From positions 3,537,001 to 3,601,000 of the forward strand of contig NZ_CM001023.1 in assembly GCF_000166275.1 (NCBI RefSeq): DNA of 64,000 nt. Direction: 5' to 3'. Source of the stretch: Algoriphagus machipongonensis (lineage in GTDB: Bacteria > Bacteroidota > Bacteroidia > Cytophagales > Cyclobacteriaceae). This document shows, one piece after another, positions 30,660-37,490 of this stretch (positions are counted from its first letter, which is position 1; each line of letters opens with the position of its first letter). The notes beneath the pieces were generated by a model, which saw only the letters and a list, made by a program, of their open reading frames with translations, was not told where the DNA came from and searched no databases. Both the position numbers and the translations under genes were made by a program.

Positions 30660-30981
30660 GTTTATAAAATAAGGTGCAAAGATATCAAAAAATCTACTTT
30701 TGGGGGACATCCTTGATTAAGAATACGCACTCCTTTTTTATTGGCTTTTTACTAGAGGAGAATATATTCTCTTAATTAAAGTCAATCCCTTGGAAAGCAT
30801 AGAAAGAAAAATAACCTATTCGAACTCAAATATTTATTCATTTTATTTCAGGAACATTCAAAACAAAATTAAAACCTAAACAGAATTTTATTCTGAATTA
30901 CCTTCTTTCCACCAGTGAATTTAAAATATGAAAAGAAAAACAGGCTTAAATTATGGACTTATTAAAATTTGGACGAAAAAT
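30660..30981. other. Gene-free region between proline dehydrogenase and the aromatic operon leader
   Basis: An AT-rich stretch with no credible ORF on either strand. It must contain the proline dehydrogenase promoter at its left end and upstream elements of the aromatic operon promoter at its right end. I found no strong dyad or repeat in it. Confidence 0.5.
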
Positions 30982-30989
30982 TAATTTTG
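30959..30989 (+). promoter_or_regulatory. Candidate promoter of the aromatic amino acid operon
   Basis: TAATTTTG at 30982-30989 is a perfect match to the Bacteroidota -7 box TAnnTTTG. Twenty bases before it lies TTA (30959-30961), two of three matches to the -33 TTG. Transcription would start near 30996, leaving about 25 bases before the leader-peptide ATG at 31021. Its spacing to the leader supports it. Confidence 0.4.
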
Positions 30990-31020
30990 ATTTTAAAAAG
31001 TACTCACTTACATTTGGGGC

Positions 31021-31116
31021 ATGTTAATCACAGCAGCGATTTATTTTACCTTCTTTTACTTTTACTTTCGAAGCCAAAATCGAATCGGAGCTGCCTATTG
31101 TCTAGACAAAATCTAA
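31021..31116 (+). CDS. Phe/Tyr-rich leader peptide of the aromatic operon
   Basis: A 31-codon ORF, ATG at 31021, TAA at 31114-31116. Residues 8-16 read YFTFFYFYF: five Phe and three Tyr codons in nine, with one more Tyr at 26. The operon behind it makes exactly these two amino acids. Its position between a promoter-like box and a terminator, and the overlap of its 3' part with one arm of an alternative hairpin, are the arrangement of classical attenuation leaders such as pheL and trpL. No start-site or expression data are available, and it is too short for domain evidence, so the call rests on codon content and RNA architecture. Confidence 0.8.
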   Translation: MLITAAIYFTFFYFYFRSQNRIGAAYCLDKI

Positions 31117-31165
31117 AAGAAAATAAACTATACAAAGAGCCCGATTCGAAAGAGTCGGGTTTTTT
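31080..31165 (+). terminator. Attenuator: mutually exclusive antiterminator and terminator hairpins
   Basis: The terminator stem is CCCGATTC (31140-31147), loop GAAA, GAGTCGGG (31152-31159), 8 bp with one G-U pair, followed by T6 (31160-31165). Its left arm can instead pair with TCGAATCGG at 31080-31088 (pairing to CCGATTCGA, 31141-31149), extended by three pairs past a bulged A (31090-31092 with 31138-31140). The antiterminator arm lies inside the leader ORF just after the Phe/Tyr run. A small stem TTCGA (31067-31071) with TCGAA (31080-31084) could hold that arm when no ribosome stalls. Stalling at Phe/Tyr codons would free it and allow read-through. Confidence 0.75.
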
Positions 31166-31183
31166 CATTTAATGCTTAGCCGT

Positions 31184-32281
31184 ATGAAAACGCACAAACA
31201 AATCAAAGACTGGGGCCTGGGACTATCAGGACCATTAATCATCGCCGGCCCATGTAGCGCCGAGTCACCTGAGCAAATCGAGAAGATTTGTATTGAAATG
31301 AAAGAGGAGAATGTTATCCCTTCTATGTTCAGAGCAGGTATCTGGAAGCCAAGAACAAGACCAGGAAGCTTCGAAGGTATTGGAGAAGAAGGCTTAAAGT
31401 GGATGGAGATCGTTCGTCATCACCTTAACATCCCTATTACTGTGGAAGTTGGAAATGCTGCTCACGCAGAAATTGCCCTTCGAAACAAAGTGGATGTAGT
31501 ATGGGTAGGTGCAAGAACTACAGTAAACCCATTTGCTGTTCAGGAAATTGCCGACGCATTAAAAGGAACTGATATTCCTGTGATGGTGAAAAACCCAATG
31601 AACCCAGATTTAGACCTATGGATGGGTGCATTAGAGAGATTCCATGCCGTTGGGTTAACCAAACTTGCAGCAATTCACAGAGGTTTCTCTGATGCTTATG
31701 ACAAGCGATTCAGAAATAAGCCAAACTGGTCTATGCCAATGCACTTGAAGCGTGTTTGGACTGGAATGGAAGTAATCAATGATCCTAGCCACATTGTAGG
31801 TAAAAGAGACGGGATTCTTGAAATCTCTCAAAAGGCAATGAACTTCGGTCTAGACGGATTGATGATCGAAACTCATCACGATCCAGACAATGCATGGTCT
31901 GATGCCAAGCAGCAGGTGACTCCAAAGAGATTGAAAGAAATCCTTGCTGCCATTGACTTCAAGAAACCATTGGAATCTGAGCAGCCAAATGAGCGTCTTA
32001 ATGACCTTAGAAGAGCAGTGGATCACTTAGATGATCAATTGTTGGATATCCTTCAGGAAAGATTCGCAGTAATCGATCAAATCGGTGCCCACAAAAGAGA
32101 ACATCACCTTTCTGTATTCCAATCTGATCGATGGAAAGACGTAATGGAAAGCCGTACTCAAAAAGGAGTACAGAAAAACCTAAGTGAGAAATTTATGAAG
32201 GAGTTACTTTATTCTATTCATGAAGAATCAGTGAAGCGTCAGGAAAAACAACTTCGCGAATCTGAAGCTGTTAAAAAATAA
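31184..32281 (+). CDS. Bifunctional DAHP synthase / chorismate mutase (AroQ type)
   Basis: About 365 residues. Residues 1-260 are a type I-beta DAHP synthase (LIIAGPCSAESPEQIEKIC, FRAGIWKPRTRPGSFEGIG, LAAIHRGFS, LMIETHHDPDNAWSDA), joining phosphoenolpyruvate and erythrose 4-phosphate at the head of the pathway. Residues about 270-355 are an AroQ chorismate mutase (NDLRRAVDHLDDQLLDILQERFAVI in part, with IGAHKRE). The mutase makes prephenate, the branch point to Phe and Tyr. ATG 31184 (MKTHKQIKDWGL) is preferred to ATG 31172. First structural gene after the attenuator. Confidence 0.92.
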   Translation: MKTHKQIKDWGLGLSGPLIIAGPCSAESPEQIEKICIEMKEENVIPSMFRAGIWKPRTRPGSFEGIGEEGLKWMEIVRHHLNIPITVEVGNAAHAEIALRNKVDVVWVGARTTVNPFAVQEIADALKGTDIPVMVKNPMNPDLDLWMGALERFHAVGLTKLAAIHRGFSDAYDKRFRNKPNWSMPMHLKRVWTGMEVINDPSHIVGKRDGILEISQKAMNFGLDGLMIETHHDPDNAWSDAKQQVTPKRLKEILAAIDFKKPLESEQPNERLNDLRRAVDHLDDQLLDILQERFAVIDQIGAHKREHHLSVFQSDRWKDVMESRTQKGVQKNLSEKFMKELLYSIHEESVKRQEKQLRESEAVKK

Positions 32282-32303: not shown

Positions 32304-32336
32304 AGTTTTGGGCGGAATTGTCCGCCCAAAACTTTT
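32304..32336 (+). terminator. Strong hairpin between the first two aromatic genes
   Basis: A perfect 13-bp stem: AGTTTTGGGCGGA (32304-32316), loop ATTG, TCCGCCCAAAACT (32321-32333), followed by only T3 (T4 counting the last stem base), then GCC. The T tract is short, so it may be a weak terminator or a processing and stability element setting the ratio of the first gene to the rest of the operon. It lies 22 bases after the first gene's stop and about 30 bases before the likely aroB start. Confidence 0.55.
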
Positions 32337-32367
32337 GCCTACCCCTTTTCTATTCAAATCAATTCCT

Positions 32368-33411
32368 GTGGACCCAGTAATTTTCTCTACCGCTATTGCC
32401 TCAGACTTGGAAAAAGTGCTTAAAAGCATTTCCTTTTCCCAACTTTTTGTTCTGACAGATCAAAACACAAATCAGCATTGTCTGCCCAAAGTAAAATCTG
32501 TTTTCCCTGAGAACACCTTTTTTCACACAGTATCGGCAGGAGAAAAAAATAAAAACCTGAGTACTTGTGCTGATATTTGGTCTGCCATGACTAAGGCAAG
32601 TCTTGACCGAAAAGCTCTATTTATCAATATTGGCGGTGGAGTCATAGGTGATATGGGTGGCTTTTGTGCCAGTATTTATAAAAGAGGGATTCGATTTATC
32701 AATATTCCCACTACGCTTCTTTCTCAAGTAGATGCAAGCGTAGGCGGAAAACTAGGAGTGGATTTTGAAGGTCTAAAAAATCATTTAGGTACTTTCAATG
32801 AACCGGAAACGGTGATGATTTCTCCTGAATTCTTAACCACTCTCCTCGCTGAGGAACTACGTTCTGGTTATGCGGAAATCATCAAACACGGATTAATCCA
32901 AGACCGTGATTATTTCGAAAAACTCGAAATCCATCATTGGGAAAACCAATCTTGGATGGACCTAATAAAACATTCCGTAGGAATCAAAAAAAAGGTGGTC
33001 GAAGAGGATCCAAAAGAAGGAGGACTTCGAAAAATACTTAATTTTGGACATACCATTGGACATGCCTTTGAATCCTATTTTCTTGATAGCCCAAAGCACT
33101 TGCTTCATGGTGAGGCCATCGCTATCGGCATGATTGCCGAAGGATATCTTTCTTATCAAAAATTAGATTTGAGTAAGTCAGAATTAGATATTCTTACCGA
33201 TTTTTTTCTGACTATTTATGGCAAATTCGATTTCGAGGAAAAGGATCTCTCTCCGATTCTTGATCTTTGTCTCCAAGACAAGAAAAATGAAGGTTCTGTC
33301 CTGATGTTTTCCTTGCTTAATGAAATTGGAGATTGCGGCTACAATATTCCCGTGAGCCGAAACGAAATTGAGGAAGCCATATACTATTATAAAAACCTAG
33401 CAAAGTCTTAA
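32368..33411 (+). CDS. aroB: 3-Dehydroquinate synthase
   Basis: About 347 residues, the NAD- and zinc-dependent second enzyme of the shikimate pathway. Key parts are LFINIGGGVIGDMGGFCAS, the hallmark RFINIPTTLLSQVDASVGGK, SGYAEIIKHGLI, KILNFGHTIGHAFE and LLHGEAIAIGM, which hold the zinc and substrate ligands. The frame is open to a TTG at 32308, but that codon lies in the left arm of a 13-bp hairpin. GTG 32368 (read M-DPVIFSTAIASDLEKVL) fits the normal N-terminus and is preferred. Confidence 0.93.
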   Translation: MDPVIFSTAIASDLEKVLKSISFSQLFVLTDQNTNQHCLPKVKSVFPENTFFHTVSAGEKNKNLSTCADIWSAMTKASLDRKALFINIGGGVIGDMGGFCASIYKRGIRFINIPTTLLSQVDASVGGKLGVDFEGLKNHLGTFNEPETVMISPEFLTTLLAEELRSGYAEIIKHGLIQDRDYFEKLEIHHWENQSWMDLIKHSVGIKKKVVEEDPKEGGLRKILNFGHTIGHAFESYFLDSPKHLLHGEAIAIGMIAEGYLSYQKLDLSKSELDILTDFFLTIYGKFDFEEKDLSPILDLCLQDKKNEGSVLMFSLLNEIGDCGYNIPVSRNEIEEAIYYYKNLAKS

Positions 33412-33421
33412 ACCAATTCCC

Positions 33422-34663
33422 GTGAGTACCGATACCAAAGAACATTTGCAGTTGAACCAAAAAAGTGATTTCTCAACTGTCACTATCCCCCTATCCGCTT
33501 CAAAAAGTGAATCAAACAGAGTTTTGATCATTGATGCTCTCACTGAGGTAAGCAATAAAATTTCCAATCTGGCAGAGGCAAGAGATACTCAAACTATGAT
33601 CCGCTTGCTGCAGACAAACCCTCCGGTTTTTGATGTTTTGGATGCCGGAACCACCATGAGGTTTTTAACTGCTTTTGCGGCAGCAACCAATCAAAATAAA
33701 GTAATGACCGGTACTCCTAGAATGTGCGAAAGGCCTATAGGAATATTGGTGGATGCATTAAGAACAGTGGGTGCAGAAATCCATTACATGGGAGTGGAAG
33801 GCTATCCTCCATTGGCAATTCACGGCTTAAGTGAACAAACCACGAATCAGGTGAAAATCAGAGGAGATGTCTCTTCTCAATACATTTCGGCTATGTTGAT
33901 GATTGCCCCGACTTTACCAAAAGGCCTGGAACTGGAGTTGGAAGGGAAAGTTGGTTCTAGAACTTACATTGAAATGACCTTAGAGTTGATGGCTCAATTT
34001 GGCATCAAGTATGAGTGGAAAGGCAATAAAATTTCTGTTGATTCACAGCAGTATCAACCAACCACCTTCGCGGTAGAAAGTGATTGGTCTGGAGCAAGCT
34101 ATTGGTTTAGTTTACTTGCATGTGCAGATTCAGGGTCTTTATTTTTAGAAGGCTTGAAAGAAAACAGCCTGCAGGGAGATTCCAAAATCGTAGAAATCAT
34201 GGACCTTCTTGGAATAAAAAGCACGTTCAAAGAAGGGGGCGTCTTACTACAAAAACAAGAGGTAAAAGGCCTAAAGGAATGGGATTTTACCCACTGTCCA
34301 GATTTGGCTCAGACAGTTGCTGTAACCTGCGCCATTCTAGGTCAAAATGCGATTTTCACAGGGCTGGAAAGTTTAAAAATCAAAGAAACCGATCGGATTT
34401 TAGCTCTTCAGCAAGAGTTGGCAAAATTCAATGCAGAACTGAAAGAGATAGAAACAGAGGTATATCAAGTGATTCCTTCCGTGACAATGCCACAAGAAGT
34501 AAAAATCCATACTTATGAAGATCACAGAATGGCCATGGCATTTATGCCTTTAGTCACTAAAACCCAAGTGGTTTTTGATGACCCTGAAGTAGTAAACAAA
34601 TCCTATCCTAGTTTTTGGAAGCATTGCGAACTTGTAGGTATTACCTTGGTTAATCAAGCCTAA
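33422..34663 (+). CDS. aroA: 3-Phosphoshikimate 1-carboxyvinyltransferase (EPSP synthase)
   Basis: A 413-residue enzyme adding phosphoenolpyruvate to shikimate 3-phosphate. Motifs include PLSASKSESNRVLII (in place of the usual SKS), DAGTTMRFLTAFAA, the PRMCERPIGILVDALR stretch, IRGDVSSQYISAML, KIKETDRILALQQEL-like (LKIKETDRI) and TYEDHRMAMAF. Start codon is GTG, 11 bases after the aroB stop. Both phosphate- and PEP-binding lysines and arginines appear intact. The sequence is rather divergent in the N-terminal substrate loop, as usual in Bacteroidota. Confidence 0.93.
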   Translation: MSTDTKEHLQLNQKSDFSTVTIPLSASKSESNRVLIIDALTEVSNKISNLAEARDTQTMIRLLQTNPPVFDVLDAGTTMRFLTAFAAATNQNKVMTGTPRMCERPIGILVDALRTVGAEIHYMGVEGYPPLAIHGLSEQTTNQVKIRGDVSSQYISAMLMIAPTLPKGLELELEGKVGSRTYIEMTLELMAQFGIKYEWKGNKISVDSQQYQPTTFAVESDWSGASYWFSLLACADSGSLFLEGLKENSLQGDSKIVEIMDLLGIKSTFKEGGVLLQKQEVKGLKEWDFTHCPDLAQTVAVTCAILGQNAIFTGLESLKIKETDRILALQQELAKFNAELKEIETEVYQVIPSVTMPQEVKIHTYEDHRMAMAFMPLVTKTQVVFDDPEVVNKSYPSFWKHCELVGITLVNQA

Positions 34664-34666
34664 ACC

Positions 34667-35491
34667 ATGAGCAATTTAAAAATCGCCATTCAAGGAGTCC
34701 CAGGATCCTTTCACCATCAAGTCGCTTTGGCAAATTTTGGTGAAGAAACAGAAATCCTTCCTTTCAACACTTTTGAACTAGTAGCAAAATCAGTGGCCAC
34801 AGGTGATGCAGATTTCGCTGTGATGGCTATTGAGAACTCAATTGCGGGAGCAATTTTACCCAATTATGAACTAATTGATCGATATGAACTGACGATCAGG
34901 GATGAATTTTACCTACCGATTGCACATCAGCTCATGGCCTTACCAGGTCAGAAAATTGAAGACATTCATGAAGTTCGTTCACATCCCATGGCATTACTTC
35001 AGTGTAAATCTTTCTTTGCTCAATATCCTGACATTATCTTAAAAGACGATGTGGATACAGCAGCAGTAGCCAAGCAAATTGCTACTGAAAAATGGACAGG
35101 AATCGGAGCTATTGCCTCCAGTATTGCAGCTGAAATTTATGGTTTAGAAATCATCGGCAAGAATATTCAAACAGTTCAAAGTAATTTCACGAGATTTATC
35201 ATTCTTCAAAGCCAAAAAGAGACAAACCCGTCCAACCCGAATAAAGCTTCCATTAAAGTGACTATTCAAAATAATAAAGGGGGACTTGCCAAACTATTGA
35301 CACTAATGAGTGATAATGACCTGGATTTAAGTAAAATTCAATCCATTCCAGTGATACAAAAACCTTGGGAGTATGCATTCTTTATGGATACTGTGTTTGA
35401 GGATTATGTAAAATTCAAACAGACCATGATTGAGATACAAAAACGCTTCGGTGAGGTGAAAATTTTCGGAGAATATATCAGCAGAAAATAA
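34667..35491 (+). CDS. pheA: Prephenate dehydratase
   Basis: A 274-residue stand-alone enzyme converting prephenate to phenylpyruvate. The catalytic domain shows IAIQGVPGSFHHQVALANF, FAVMAIENSIAGAILPNYELI, RSHPMALLQCKSF and NFTRFIIL (the conserved T-R-F). A C-terminal ACT domain (KASIKVTIQNNKGGLAKLLTLMSDNDLDLSKI in part, IQSIPVI) should bind phenylalanine for feedback control, giving a second layer of control beside the leader. It starts 3 bases after aroA, and its stop shares a base with the next ATG. Confidence 0.93.
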   Translation: MSNLKIAIQGVPGSFHHQVALANFGEETEILPFNTFELVAKSVATGDADFAVMAIENSIAGAILPNYELIDRYELTIRDEFYLPIAHQLMALPGQKIEDIHEVRSHPMALLQCKSFFAQYPDIILKDDVDTAAVAKQIATEKWTGIGAIASSIAAEIYGLEIIGKNIQTVQSNFTRFIILQSQKETNPSNPNKASIKVTIQNNKGGLAKLLTLMSDNDLDLSKIQSIPVIQKPWEYAFFMDTVFEDYVKFKQTMIEIQKRFGEVKIFGEYISRK

Positions 35492-36645
35492 TGAAAGGAT
35501 TTTCAAGCAAAATCGAAACAGTTGAGGAGTACTATTTTTCTGCTAAGCTCAGGGAAGTTTCAAAAATGATTTCTGAAGGAAAAGCAGTGATCAATTTAGG
35601 CATTGGAAGCCCAGACCTCGCTCCTGACCCCAAAGTCATTGAAGCGATGAAAAATACTGTTGACAATACGCAATCTCACGGCTACCAGAGCTATCAGGGC
35701 ATCCCTGAGTTGAGGGTTTCCATTGCCAACTACTATCAAAAATCCTATGGAGTCAGTCTAGACCCAAACACTGAAATCCTACCACTCATGGGTTCGAAGG
35801 AAGGAATTATGCATTTGAGCATGACATTTCTTAATCCAGGCGATGAGGTTTTAATACCAAACCCAGGCTACCCTACTTATGCTTCGGTGACAAAATTATT
35901 GGAAGCTTCCCCAGTATATTATTCCTTGGATTTACATAAAAACGGGAGACCTAATCTTGAGGAACTGGAATCGAGAGACCTTAGCAAGGTAAAGTTGATG
36001 TGGATAAACTACCCGCATATGCCTACTGGAGCCAAAGGTTCGAGAATAATTCTTGAGGAACTTGTGGCATTTGCAAAAAAGCATCAAATCGTCCTTTTAC
36101 ATGACAATCCTTATAGCCATATTCTTACCGAAGAACCGCTAAGTATTTTAAGTATTCCCGGCGCTAAAGATGTTGCTATGGAGCTAAACTCTTTGAGCAA
36201 AACTTTCAATATGCCAGGTTGGAGAATCGGGATGTTGGTGGGTCGAGCGGATTGGTTGCAAAAAGTATTGAAAGTCAAAAGCAATATGGACTCGGGAATG
36301 TTTTTGGGACTTCAAAAAGGAGCCATCACTGCATTGAACTTAGGCCAAAGCTGGTTTGACGATCTACAAGAGCTTTATGGAAACCGTAGAAAACTGGTTT
36401 GGAAACTTGCTGACAAATTAGGATTAAGTTACGACCAGAATTCTGCTGGAATGTTTGTTTGGTGTAAAGTTCCTGAAGGAAAAACAGCAGATGAGATCGT
36501 GGACCATTTGCTTTACGAACACCATATATTTATCACACCTGGGAGGATTTTTGGTCCCGCGGGAGAAAATCACGTACGAATTTCACTTTGTATGCCTGAA
36601 TTCAAAATTTTAGAAGCCTTCCACCGCATAAAAACATCATCATGA
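35491..36645 (+). CDS. PLP-dependent aminotransferase of the aromatic operon
   Basis: A 384-residue class I/II aminotransferase. It has the N-terminal INLGIGSPDLAPDPKVI, LMGSKEGIMHLSMTFLNPGD, VLIPNPGYPTYASV and the PLP lysine in LNSLSKTFNMPGWRIGMLVG. The family spans aspartate, diaminopimelate and aromatic aminotransferases. Between prephenate dehydratase and prephenate dehydrogenase its job is most likely the last transamination giving phenylalanine and tyrosine, an inference from position. Its ATG overlaps the pheA stop (TAATG), and its stop overlaps tyrA by 4 bases. Confidence 0.88.
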   Translation: MKGFSSKIETVEEYYFSAKLREVSKMISEGKAVINLGIGSPDLAPDPKVIEAMKNTVDNTQSHGYQSYQGIPELRVSIANYYQKSYGVSLDPNTEILPLMGSKEGIMHLSMTFLNPGDEVLIPNPGYPTYASVTKLLEASPVYYSLDLHKNGRPNLEELESRDLSKVKLMWINYPHMPTGAKGSRIILEELVAFAKKHQIVLLHDNPYSHILTEEPLSILSIPGAKDVAMELNSLSKTFNMPGWRIGMLVGRADWLQKVLKVKSNMDSGMFLGLQKGAITALNLGQSWFDDLQELYGNRRKLVWKLADKLGLSYDQNSAGMFVWCKVPEGKTADEIVDHLLYEHHIFITPGRIFGPAGENHVRISLCMPEFKILEAFHRIKTSS

Positions 36646-37490
36646 AAAAAATACACATCATCGGACTAGGTCTTCTAGGGGGATCTTTTTCTCTTGGAGC
36701 CAAAAAGAAACTAAATGACTTAGTCATTACAGGTTTTGACATCGATCCAAAAAATCAAAAAGATGCGCTCACCTTAGGTATTATTTCGGAGGTGAAAGAA
36801 ACTCCGGATTTAGATACAGACCTAGTGATTTTAGCTACGCCTGCAGATACTTTAGGAGGCCTATTAGTAAAAACCTTAGATCAGATTGGGCCTGAGACAT
36901 TGGTCTTTGATGTAGGGTCAACCAAATCTTCCTTAACGAAACTGACTGCAGGCCACCCAAAAAGATCTCAATATTTAGCAGCGCACCCAATTGCAGGAAC
37001 GGAATATTCAGGACCAAAAGCAGCTTTTGAAGATCTATTGGACAGGAAAGTGATGATTATTTGCGAATTGGAGAAAACAGATCTTCACCTCAAGGAAAAA
37101 GCTTATGAGCTCTTCGATGCACTTAATTTAAAACTTAGGTTCATGGACCCAGAAGAGCATGACAGGCACTTGGCTTTTGTCTCCCATCTTTCTCATATAT
37201 CTTCTTTCATGTTAGGTCAAACCGTATTGCAGAAAATGGCTGATGAAAAGAACATTTTCGATATGGCAGGATCTGGCTTTGCTTCAACCGTGAGGCTTGC
37301 AAAATCTAGCCCCGCTATGTGGGCTCCAATTTTAACGGAAAACAAAGAGAATATTTTGAACGCCTTAGATGGGTACATTGCAAATCTTTCCTCATTCAGG
37401 GAGAAAATAGCCCAGGGAGAAACAAAAGAACTGTTTGATGAAATGGCTTCCATAAATAAAATCAGAGATATTCTAGAACTTGGAAAATAG
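36642..37490 (+). CDS. tyrA: Prephenate dehydrogenase
   Basis: A 282-residue NAD(P)-dependent enzyme making 4-hydroxyphenylpyruvate, the tyrosine branch. The nucleotide fold reads IHIIGLGLLGGSFSLGAK, the active site includes DVGSTKSSL and AAHPIAGTEYSGPKAA (His-Pro-Ile-Ala-Gly), and DRHLAFVSHLSHISSFML is the helical dimer domain with its conserved HLxH. No chorismate mutase or ACT domain is fused; the mutase is on the first gene. It is the last gene before a strong terminator. Confidence 0.92.
   Translation: MKKIHIIGLGLLGGSFSLGAKKKLNDLVITGFDIDPKNQKDALTLGIISEVKETPDLDTDLVILATPADTLGGLLVKTLDQIGPETLVFDVGSTKSSLTKLTAGHPKRSQYLAAHPIAGTEYSGPKAAFEDLLDRKVMIICELEKTDLHLKEKAYELFDALNLKLRFMDPEEHDRHLAFVSHLSHISSFMLGQTVLQKMADEKNIFDMAGSGFASTVRLAKSSPAMWAPILTENKENILNALDGYIANLSSFREKIAQGETKELFDEMASINKIRDILELGK

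Follow-up and report, generated by a model that had tools for sequence, protein, structure and literature searches.

A candidate phenylalanine/tyrosine leader-peptide attenuator, predicted to be leaderless, at the head of an aromatic amino acid operon in Algoriphagus machipongonensis

Introduction

The pheL attenuator of Enterobacteria controls a Phe gene through a leader ORF rich in codons for the product and through pairings between successive RNA regions (1:2, 2:3 and 3:4). A short ORF with a run of Phe and Tyr codons precedes a set of Phe and Tyr biosynthetic genes in Algoriphagus machipongonensis, a member of the Bacteroidota, which raises the question of whether this operon is governed by a switch of the same type. 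The window analysed here is the whole 64,000-nucleotide stretch of DNA that contains this locus; the genome to which it belongs comprises 4.79 Mb in one contig.

The leader in the window resembles pheL in its product-codon ORF and in its 1:2, 2:3 and 3:4 regions. It differs in mixing Phe and Tyr codons, in having tyrA and DAHP synthase in its operon and in a leader transcript that is predicted to be leaderless. The Rfam model for Phe_leader (RF01859) gave 18.8 bits (E 1.1) against the window, below its cut-off of 55. From its sequence features, the element very probably belongs with pheL and trpL among the ribosome-mediated transcription attenuators and would sense charged tRNA-Phe and tRNA-Tyr.

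Results and discussion

The operon serves the terminal branches of Phe and Tyr synthesis

Pfam confirmed the identities originally assigned to the six genes behind the leader, which are as follows.

31172..32281, + strand: DAHP synthase-chorismate mutase (DAHPS-CM), first structural gene (Pfam PF00793 and PF01817)
32308..33411, + strand: aroB, 3-dehydroquinate synthase (Pfam)
33422..34663, + strand: aroA, EPSP synthase (Pfam)
34667..35491, + strand: pheA, prephenate dehydratase (Pfam; ACT match weak, under the Pfam cut-off)
35491..36645, + strand: class I/II aminotransferase (Pfam)
36642..37490, + strand: tyrA, prephenate dehydrogenase (Pfam)

Judged by eye, homologues of the first gene agree better with a start at the ATG at 31184. 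The closest named relatives of this gene among the best 80 of 131 loci are Algoriphagus species, with 94-96% identity. The order DAHPS-CM, aroB, aroA, pheA, aminotransferase, tyrA is found in 71 of the 80 loci (best 80 of 131), and the other nine have the same order and end early. The operon had been described as complete and as making exactly Phe and Tyr. Both descriptions hold for the terminal branches; the only shikimate steps present are DAHP synthase, aroB and aroA, and because these first three genes serve Trp too, 'exactly Phe and Tyr' must be limited to the terminal branches.

Architecture of the leader

The 31-codon ORF lies exactly at the predicted coordinates, with YFTFFYFYF at residues 8-16, and its translation reads MLITAAIYFTFFYFYFRSQNRIGAAYCLDKI followed by a stop. 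The elements of the leader are listed below.

30986..30989, + strand: -33 promoter element TTTG (TTG at fixed spacing in relatives)
31009..31016, + strand: -7 promoter element TACATTTG (TAnnTTTG; box position conserved, 79 rows)
31021, + strand: predicted transcription start, A of the leader ATG (leaderless; from box spacing compared with Flavobacterium psychrophilum)
31021..31116, + strand: leader peptide ORF, 31 codons plus TAA (translation; kept in 79 of 80 loci, best 80 of 131)
31031..31047, + strand: region 1, pairs with region 2 as the protector hairpin (folds; related register with 86.5% paired cells in 72 sequences)
31042..31068, + strand: control codons YFTFFYFYF, codons 8-16 (pN 0.046 versus pS 0.428)
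31080..31092, + strand: region 2, antiterminator 5' strand, coding for RIGA (codon conservation, pS 0.084; 97.8% of cells paired with region 3)
31138..31149, + strand: region 3, partner of region 2 or terminator 5' arm (folds, alignment)
31140..31165, + strand: intrinsic terminator, regions 3:4 with GAAA loop and T6 (fold; 98.9% of cells paired in 72 sequences)

The intrinsic terminator at 31140-31165 was borne out by folding. Its stem (31140-31147 with 31152-31159) encloses the GAAA loop, is followed by T6 and has a stability of -12.5 kcal/mol (z -5.5). A simple terminator scan of the window listed no site at this position, presumably because the scan, on extending the stem, counts the T-run as paired to the A-rich sequence on its 5' side, so that no T-run remains to be seen. 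The competing pairing of 31080-31092 with 31138-31149 likewise stood up to folding. It comprises 12 bp, arranged as nine pairs, a bulged A at 31089 and three pairs, and the fold of 31078-31151 reaches -19.7 kcal/mol (z -5.6), a value equalled by none of 200 shuffles. The 1:2 protector hairpin of the window, as modelled, is not strong by itself (z -2.2; shuffle p 0.063).

Placement of the control codons is also as expected for an attenuator. The front edge of a ribosome usually lies 16 nt past the first base of the P-site codon. With this footprint, a stall at codon 16 leaves the RNA free from nt 59 onward. Region 2 lies 11 nt past the last control codon and begins at nt 60. When the nascent RNA was folded without a ribosome, lengths of 85 and 112 nt yielded 1:2 (15 pairs). 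At nt 131 the minimum changed to 2:3, and at nt 138 the fold reverted to 1:2 plus 3:4. With a ribosome masked at codon 8, 10, 13 or 16, 2:3 (17 pairs) was present at nt 131 and 138. At nt 145, where the entire T-run has emerged, equilibrium favours the terminator when the stall is at codon 8, 10 or 16 but not when it is at codon 13. Since equilibrium folds return to the terminator, the switch would have to be kinetic and depend on the capture of region 3.

Selection on the leader ORF is split

Relatives were taken as the best 80 named loci of 131 found. Comparison of the regions upstream of these orthologous genes, as originally proposed, revealed a conserved aromatic run in 79 of the 80 (best 80 of 131). 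The first scans detected a leader in 78; L063 was added later to make 79 of 80 (best 80 of 131), having been missed because a second DAHP synthase fragment displaced the match. This fragment, apparently broken, lies upstream of the leader (L063:5905-6230) in a single MAG. The 80th locus, L039, has only 195 nt ahead of the gene before the contig ends.

Codon comparisons were made on 62 unique 31-codon leaders. In this set pN and pS are 0.283 and 0.405 for the N-terminal codons, 0.046 and 0.428 for the aromatic run, 0.318 and 0.367 for the linker (ratio 0.87), 0.012 and 0.084 for region 2, and 0.144 and 0.397 for the leader tail (ratio 0.36). With pN far below pS, the aromatic run is therefore held at the amino-acid level while its synonymous codons are free. 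The low pS of region 2 indicates that this segment is held as nucleotides, with synonymous codons almost frozen; CGA, ATC and GGA are used in 69, 70 and 66 of 70 unique leaders, respectively (L028 and L074 were excluded from this codon table for a length change). Within the run, Tyr and Phe interchange at positions 8, 12 and 13, and Trp also occurs at 8. This division of the ORF into a constrained run, a constrained region 2 and a nearly free linker matches, at the level of sequence, what an attenuator requires.

The tail of the leader (31093-31113, codons 25-31, YCLxKN) is conserved above the linker, though attenuation needs no such thing, and the conservation of codons 26-30 in particular exceeds what the model calls for. 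When extension of the 2:3 helix was examined, the tail's own spacer outpaired shuffled spacers in 54 of 72 rows, so that helix extension accounts for the tail at best in part. A role in trans for the terminated leaderless RNA of about 145 nt, or for its 31-residue peptide, like that of rnTrpL/peTrpL of Sinorhizobium, would explain why the tail (pN/pS 0.36) is better conserved than the linker (0.87). We regard such a role as unlikely, and helix extension may be the duller cause.

A departure from the usual run was seen in one genome of the family (88% complete), where the leader at L217:350-180 (reverse strand) reads YFFYFLLLLSIKSRIGAPYC. Reading and translation by eye show that changes in T-run length replace some of the aromatic residues by Leu, that the frame is restored ahead of RIGA and that the ORF continues into the terminator; the model score is 85 bits. 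This leader reflects either an assembly error or a genuine change in specificity.

A conserved promoter predicts a leaderless transcript

In 76 of 79 rows the element TAnnTTT[G/A] ends 4 nt upstream of the leader ATG (54 with G, 22 with A), and in the other three it ends 5 nt upstream. The distance from the -7 element back to a TTG is 19 nt in 74 of 79 rows and 20 nt in four, and one row lacks the TTG. Among 1024 ORF starts from the same, related loci, the box falls 2-6 nt before the start codon in only 5 of 121 occurrences, and 18 nt before it in 44 of 121. TAnnTTTG occupies -12 to -5 in F. psychrophilum according to the accessible text of PMC9723704. A box that ends 4 nt before the AUG therefore places +1 at the A of the AUG, and the transcript should begin there, i.e. 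be leaderless. A transcription start downstream of 31116, which the original prediction had named as contrary evidence, is unlikely since the conserved promoter sits immediately upstream of the ORF.

The same attenuator might instead be transcribed from a start some 20-40 nt farther upstream and hence be leadered, a proposal that concerns the start site only and not the mechanism. The window does contain another TAnnTTTG-like site, TAATTTTG, which overlaps the -33 region, and pheA leaders in other genera are mostly leadered where a box is found (17 of 35 have it 15-35 nt upstream). However, the upstream site survives in relatives as a TTG at the fixed 19-nt spacing (74 of 79), and all 79 rows have TAnnTTT[G/A] at a distance of 4 or 5 nt before the ATG, so that we think an upstream start improbable.

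In other leaders of the window's family, the box was found 4 nt from the ATG in L084, L085, L086 and L217 (all four by eye) and in L218, L220, L224 and L225. The distance is 5 nt for L223 and L230 and 6 nt for L228. A relaxed box is located at 5 nt in L219 and at 7 nt in L221, and no box was found within 12 nt of the ATG in L222, L226, L227 and L232. For the 35 pheA leaders described below, TAnnTTTG lies 15-35 nt upstream in 17, 6-8 nt in three and farther away in two; the remaining 13 have no TAnnTTTG within 90 nt, although L171 among them carries the TTTA form at 4 nt. Judged by box position, leaders of the window's family would often be transcribed from the AUG or close to it, and pheA leaders of the class seldom so.

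The pairings are maintained in close and distant relatives

Alignment A1 holds 72 rows after duplicates were collapsed and L053 and L057 were dropped (terminator pattern unmatched). Compensatory changes in the hairpins, anticipated by the original prediction, were found for the terminator and the 1:2 helix. The terminator has 98.9% of cells paired and one compensated pair among these 72 sequences. In the 1:2 helix, 86.5% of cells are paired and three pairs are compensated, with C-G/G-C and A-U/G-C exchanges. None of 500 shuffles, controls that retain relatedness, matched its paired fraction, double-change cells or covariation score; its compensated pairs and further pair types do not exceed these shuffles (151 and 249 of 500 were as high). 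The anticipated changes are missing from the antiterminator, for which 97.8% of cells are paired (column shuffles, 97.9%) with no compensated pair in the same close family, because both strands are almost frozen.

This lack of covariation is made good by distant leaders, which pair with different sequence in both strands. We assembled 50 leaders, in which terminator and leader were picked blind to the antiterminator, and compared them with dinucleotide shuffles. Nine are of the window type, six are others located before DAHPS-CM, and 35 lie before pheA in 16 families including the window's own, so that the 50 are not all independent; Fisher combinations treat such kin as independent and were not used as p-values. 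The antiterminator exceeded shuffles in 44 of 50 leaders at p<0.05 and in 36 at p<0.01, and failed to do so in six (L155, L162, L172, L182, L197 and L198). For the 1:2 helix in single sequences, 12 of 50 reached p<0.05. Another 13 divergent leaders of the window's family, in which regions 2 and 3 differ in sequence, all have antiterminators at p<0.05. Nine of these precede DAHPS-CM, one pheA and two an aminotransferase gene, and L232 has no gene assignment. The competing pairing thus exceeds shuffles (p<0.05) in 57 of the 63 leaders tested, 36 of which precede pheA. Counted from the last aromatic codon, the distance to the printed start of region 2 is 0-13 nt in the 50 leaders and 2-17 nt in the 13.

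Related leaders seem widespread in Bacteroidota

Across the order, 60 regions upstream of DAHPS-CM homologues were examined, and nine contain aromatic leaders (L084, L085, L086, L092, L093, L094, L100, L117 and L118). Reading of the remaining 51 revealed no aromatic leader; of their low-scoring candidates, those in L111, L116, L131 and L132 were inspected and rejected. The DAHPS-CM gene may sit inside an operon in many of the genomes.

A sequence search, which will miss some, found pheA in 64 of 247 genomes of the class. Upstream regions were covered for 60 of the 64 (G000, G050, G270 and G364 were left out), and 35 of these 60 carry a leader plus terminator. L196 was excluded, its sole candidate overlapping the terminator and having no ATG. 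In L203, from a genome of the window's own genus, no leader precedes pheA, as expected because pheA there lies inside the operon. Codons for both Phe and Tyr are present in the run of all 50 leaders, and Trp codons too in 16; the leader filter pooled F, Y and W, so having both Phe and Tyr was not required.

A model built from 72 window-type leaders scored at least 125 bits in 38 of 148 family genomes, a count that includes the window's own and may include others used to build the model. Its best match outside the family and within the order (48.3 bits, G198) is leader L100, which had been found independently. Matches near 50 bits are unreliable, as L229 (52.7) and L231 (50.1) hold no leader. 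No Rfam family produced a gathering match in 40 related loci.

In several genera of the same family (L177, L180, L181, L226, L223 and L230) the attenuator precedes pheA or an aminotransferase gene, and in sister genera DAHPS-CM comes first. The attenuator seems to stay at the head of the operon while gene order changes. These surveys suggest that mixed Phe/Tyr leaders, often with Trp, are widespread before pheA or DAHP synthase in Bacteroidota and are missing from Rfam.

Proposed mechanism and alternative explanations

The locus combines a product-codon ORF, a terminator, an excluding 2:3 pairing, a 1:2 hairpin and control codons suitably placed. In the mechanism that we propose, transcription would begin at the A of the leader AUG or about a base to either side. 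A ribosome would initiate on the bare 5' end of the RNA. When tRNA-Phe and tRNA-Tyr are charged, the ribosome would pass the aromatic codons and reach the stop; regions 1 and 2 would be paired or covered, region 3 would pair with region 4, and termination at about 31165 would yield a leader RNA of about 145 nt. If either tRNA is short, the ribosome would stall somewhere in codons 8-16 and thus sit on region 1 or slightly beyond it; even a stall at codon 16 would leave region 2 just clear of the ribosome. Region 2 could then capture the emerging region 3, the terminator would form too late, and polymerase would enter the operon. The ORF, promoter geometry, pairings, conservation and gene content are read directly from the DNA, and from these we infer the start site, the stalling, and termination and its relief; joint sensing of Phe and Tyr would follow from codon content.

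The leader could in principle be a separate gene, with a promoter and a terminator, that encodes a small hydrophobic membrane protein, and the operon could be expressed by plain read-through. The peptide is indeed hydrophobic, has an arginine after the run, is strongly conserved in the family and is fairly conserved at codons 26-30. Such a protein is nevertheless hard to reconcile with a region 2 that is constrained at synonymous sites (pS 0.084) and complementary to a terminator arm, or with a linker that is almost unconstrained (0.318/0.367). Furthermore, other lineages have different and in many cases shorter peptides, yet retain the same aromatic run and pairings. We therefore consider this explanation very improbable. 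Slightly less probable still is nascent-peptide arrest, wherein free Phe or Tyr rather than tRNA charging would be sensed in the exit tunnel, as Trp is by TnaC. Conservation of the aromatic run and its fixed length in most of the family agree with arrest, but F, Y and W interchange, and the order and context of the run vary among lineages. With arrest triggered by the product, expression would also be expected to go up as Phe and Tyr become abundant, which is the opposite of what a biosynthetic operon needs.

A T-box or riboswitch was dropped as a candidate, as no Rfam family has a gathering match in the window. The top weak score in the leader belongs to BTnc231 (20.8 bits, cut-off 80.4), and an unrelated snRNA family has a slightly lower E-value on the other strand. 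Among 247 genomes, the sole BTnc231 match above cut-off (G311) is about 248 kb from the pheA of that genome, and the ORFs surrounding four printed BTnc231 loci look unlike pheA by eye. The tRNA-sensing attenuator remains the preferred reading.

Other amino acid leaders in the same genome

Upstream of trpE (L213:1297-1429), a Trp leader, MKTFANKYWWWHSYSFQKEV, is followed by a terminator. TAnnTTTG ends 11 nt before its ATG, from which a short 5' UTR is predicted, and no Rfam match was found at E up to 0.1. The region before ilvD (L215:1263-1382) contains the leader MYQVVILLSLIILIGC, a terminator and, just behind the ORF, a 10-bp complementary stretch (by eye); it is likely, by its sequence, to be an Ile/Leu/Val attenuator. 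A short ORF ending in HHFHHSS (by eye) precedes hisG (L212:1166-1249) with a TATATTTG box 9 nt upstream, and our script found no clear intrinsic terminator there. No leader was found before the homoserine dehydrogenase gene. Given the trpE and ilvD leaders and the hisG ORF, attenuation seems to be used repeatedly by A. machipongonensis.

Relation to known systems

The Bacteroid-trp RNA is linked to trp genes. Its Rfam model (RF01692) matches neither the window nor the trp leader of the same genome. This RNA is listed as a Bacteroidetes structured RNA in the accessible text of Weinberg (2010, PMC2864571). The original prediction held that an attenuator of this kind is little described in Bacteroidota, which is fair, with two precedents. 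One, in the available portion of Guerin (2021, PMC9723704), is a conserved pheA 5' element in F. psychrophilum and Flavobacteriaceae, together with leader-peptide attenuation before amino acid operons. It comes from the same phylum and a different family, whereas DAHPS-CM is first in the operon here, and that portion offers a mention rather than a sequence or mechanism for comparison.

The other concerns Corynebacterium glutamicum, whose aroF is a DAHP synthase gene. A putative leader peptide with Phe-Tyr-Phe precedes it according to the accessible part of PMC4046766; the organism belongs to the Actinobacteria, three aromatic residues are named, and the likeness is one of description. The accessible part of a survey of Actinobacteria reports no conserved Phe or Tyr elements (PMC1262725).

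Leaderless attenuators have also been described, for other amino acids and in other phyla. Canestrari and co-workers reportedly described leaderless poly-Cys ORFs of mycobacteria in 2020. In the text available from each source, these mycobacterial ORFs were the subject of an earlier proposal (PMC4633059), the attenuator transcript of S. meliloti trpL begins at the leader start codon (PMC7298713), and the C. glutamicum ilvBNC leader is treated as leaderless (PMC11857589). Leaderless mRNAs amount to 5.5% in F. psychrophilum (PMC9723704, accessible text), and about 3.7% of 5' UTRs are under 10 nt in B. thetaiotaomicron. The literature that we searched, which included few subscription papers, yielded no Phe/Tyr attenuator of this family and no leaderless attenuator in Bacteroidota. 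The mechanism, leaderless attenuators and the FYF leader of aroF are thus already known; new are the Algoriphagus member, its predicted leaderless form within Bacteroidota and the family's breadth.

All four regions of an attenuator are found at the locus, together with a conserved promoter and a predicted start that can be tested, in a phylum reported to be without Shine-Dalgarno sequences. The predicted leaderless form poses the question of how ribosomes that load on a bare 5' end could be quick enough to match the polymerase. The interest of this leader family lies in that predicted start, in the putative joint sensing of Phe and Tyr, and in its breadth within a phylum where such switches have hardly been catalogued.
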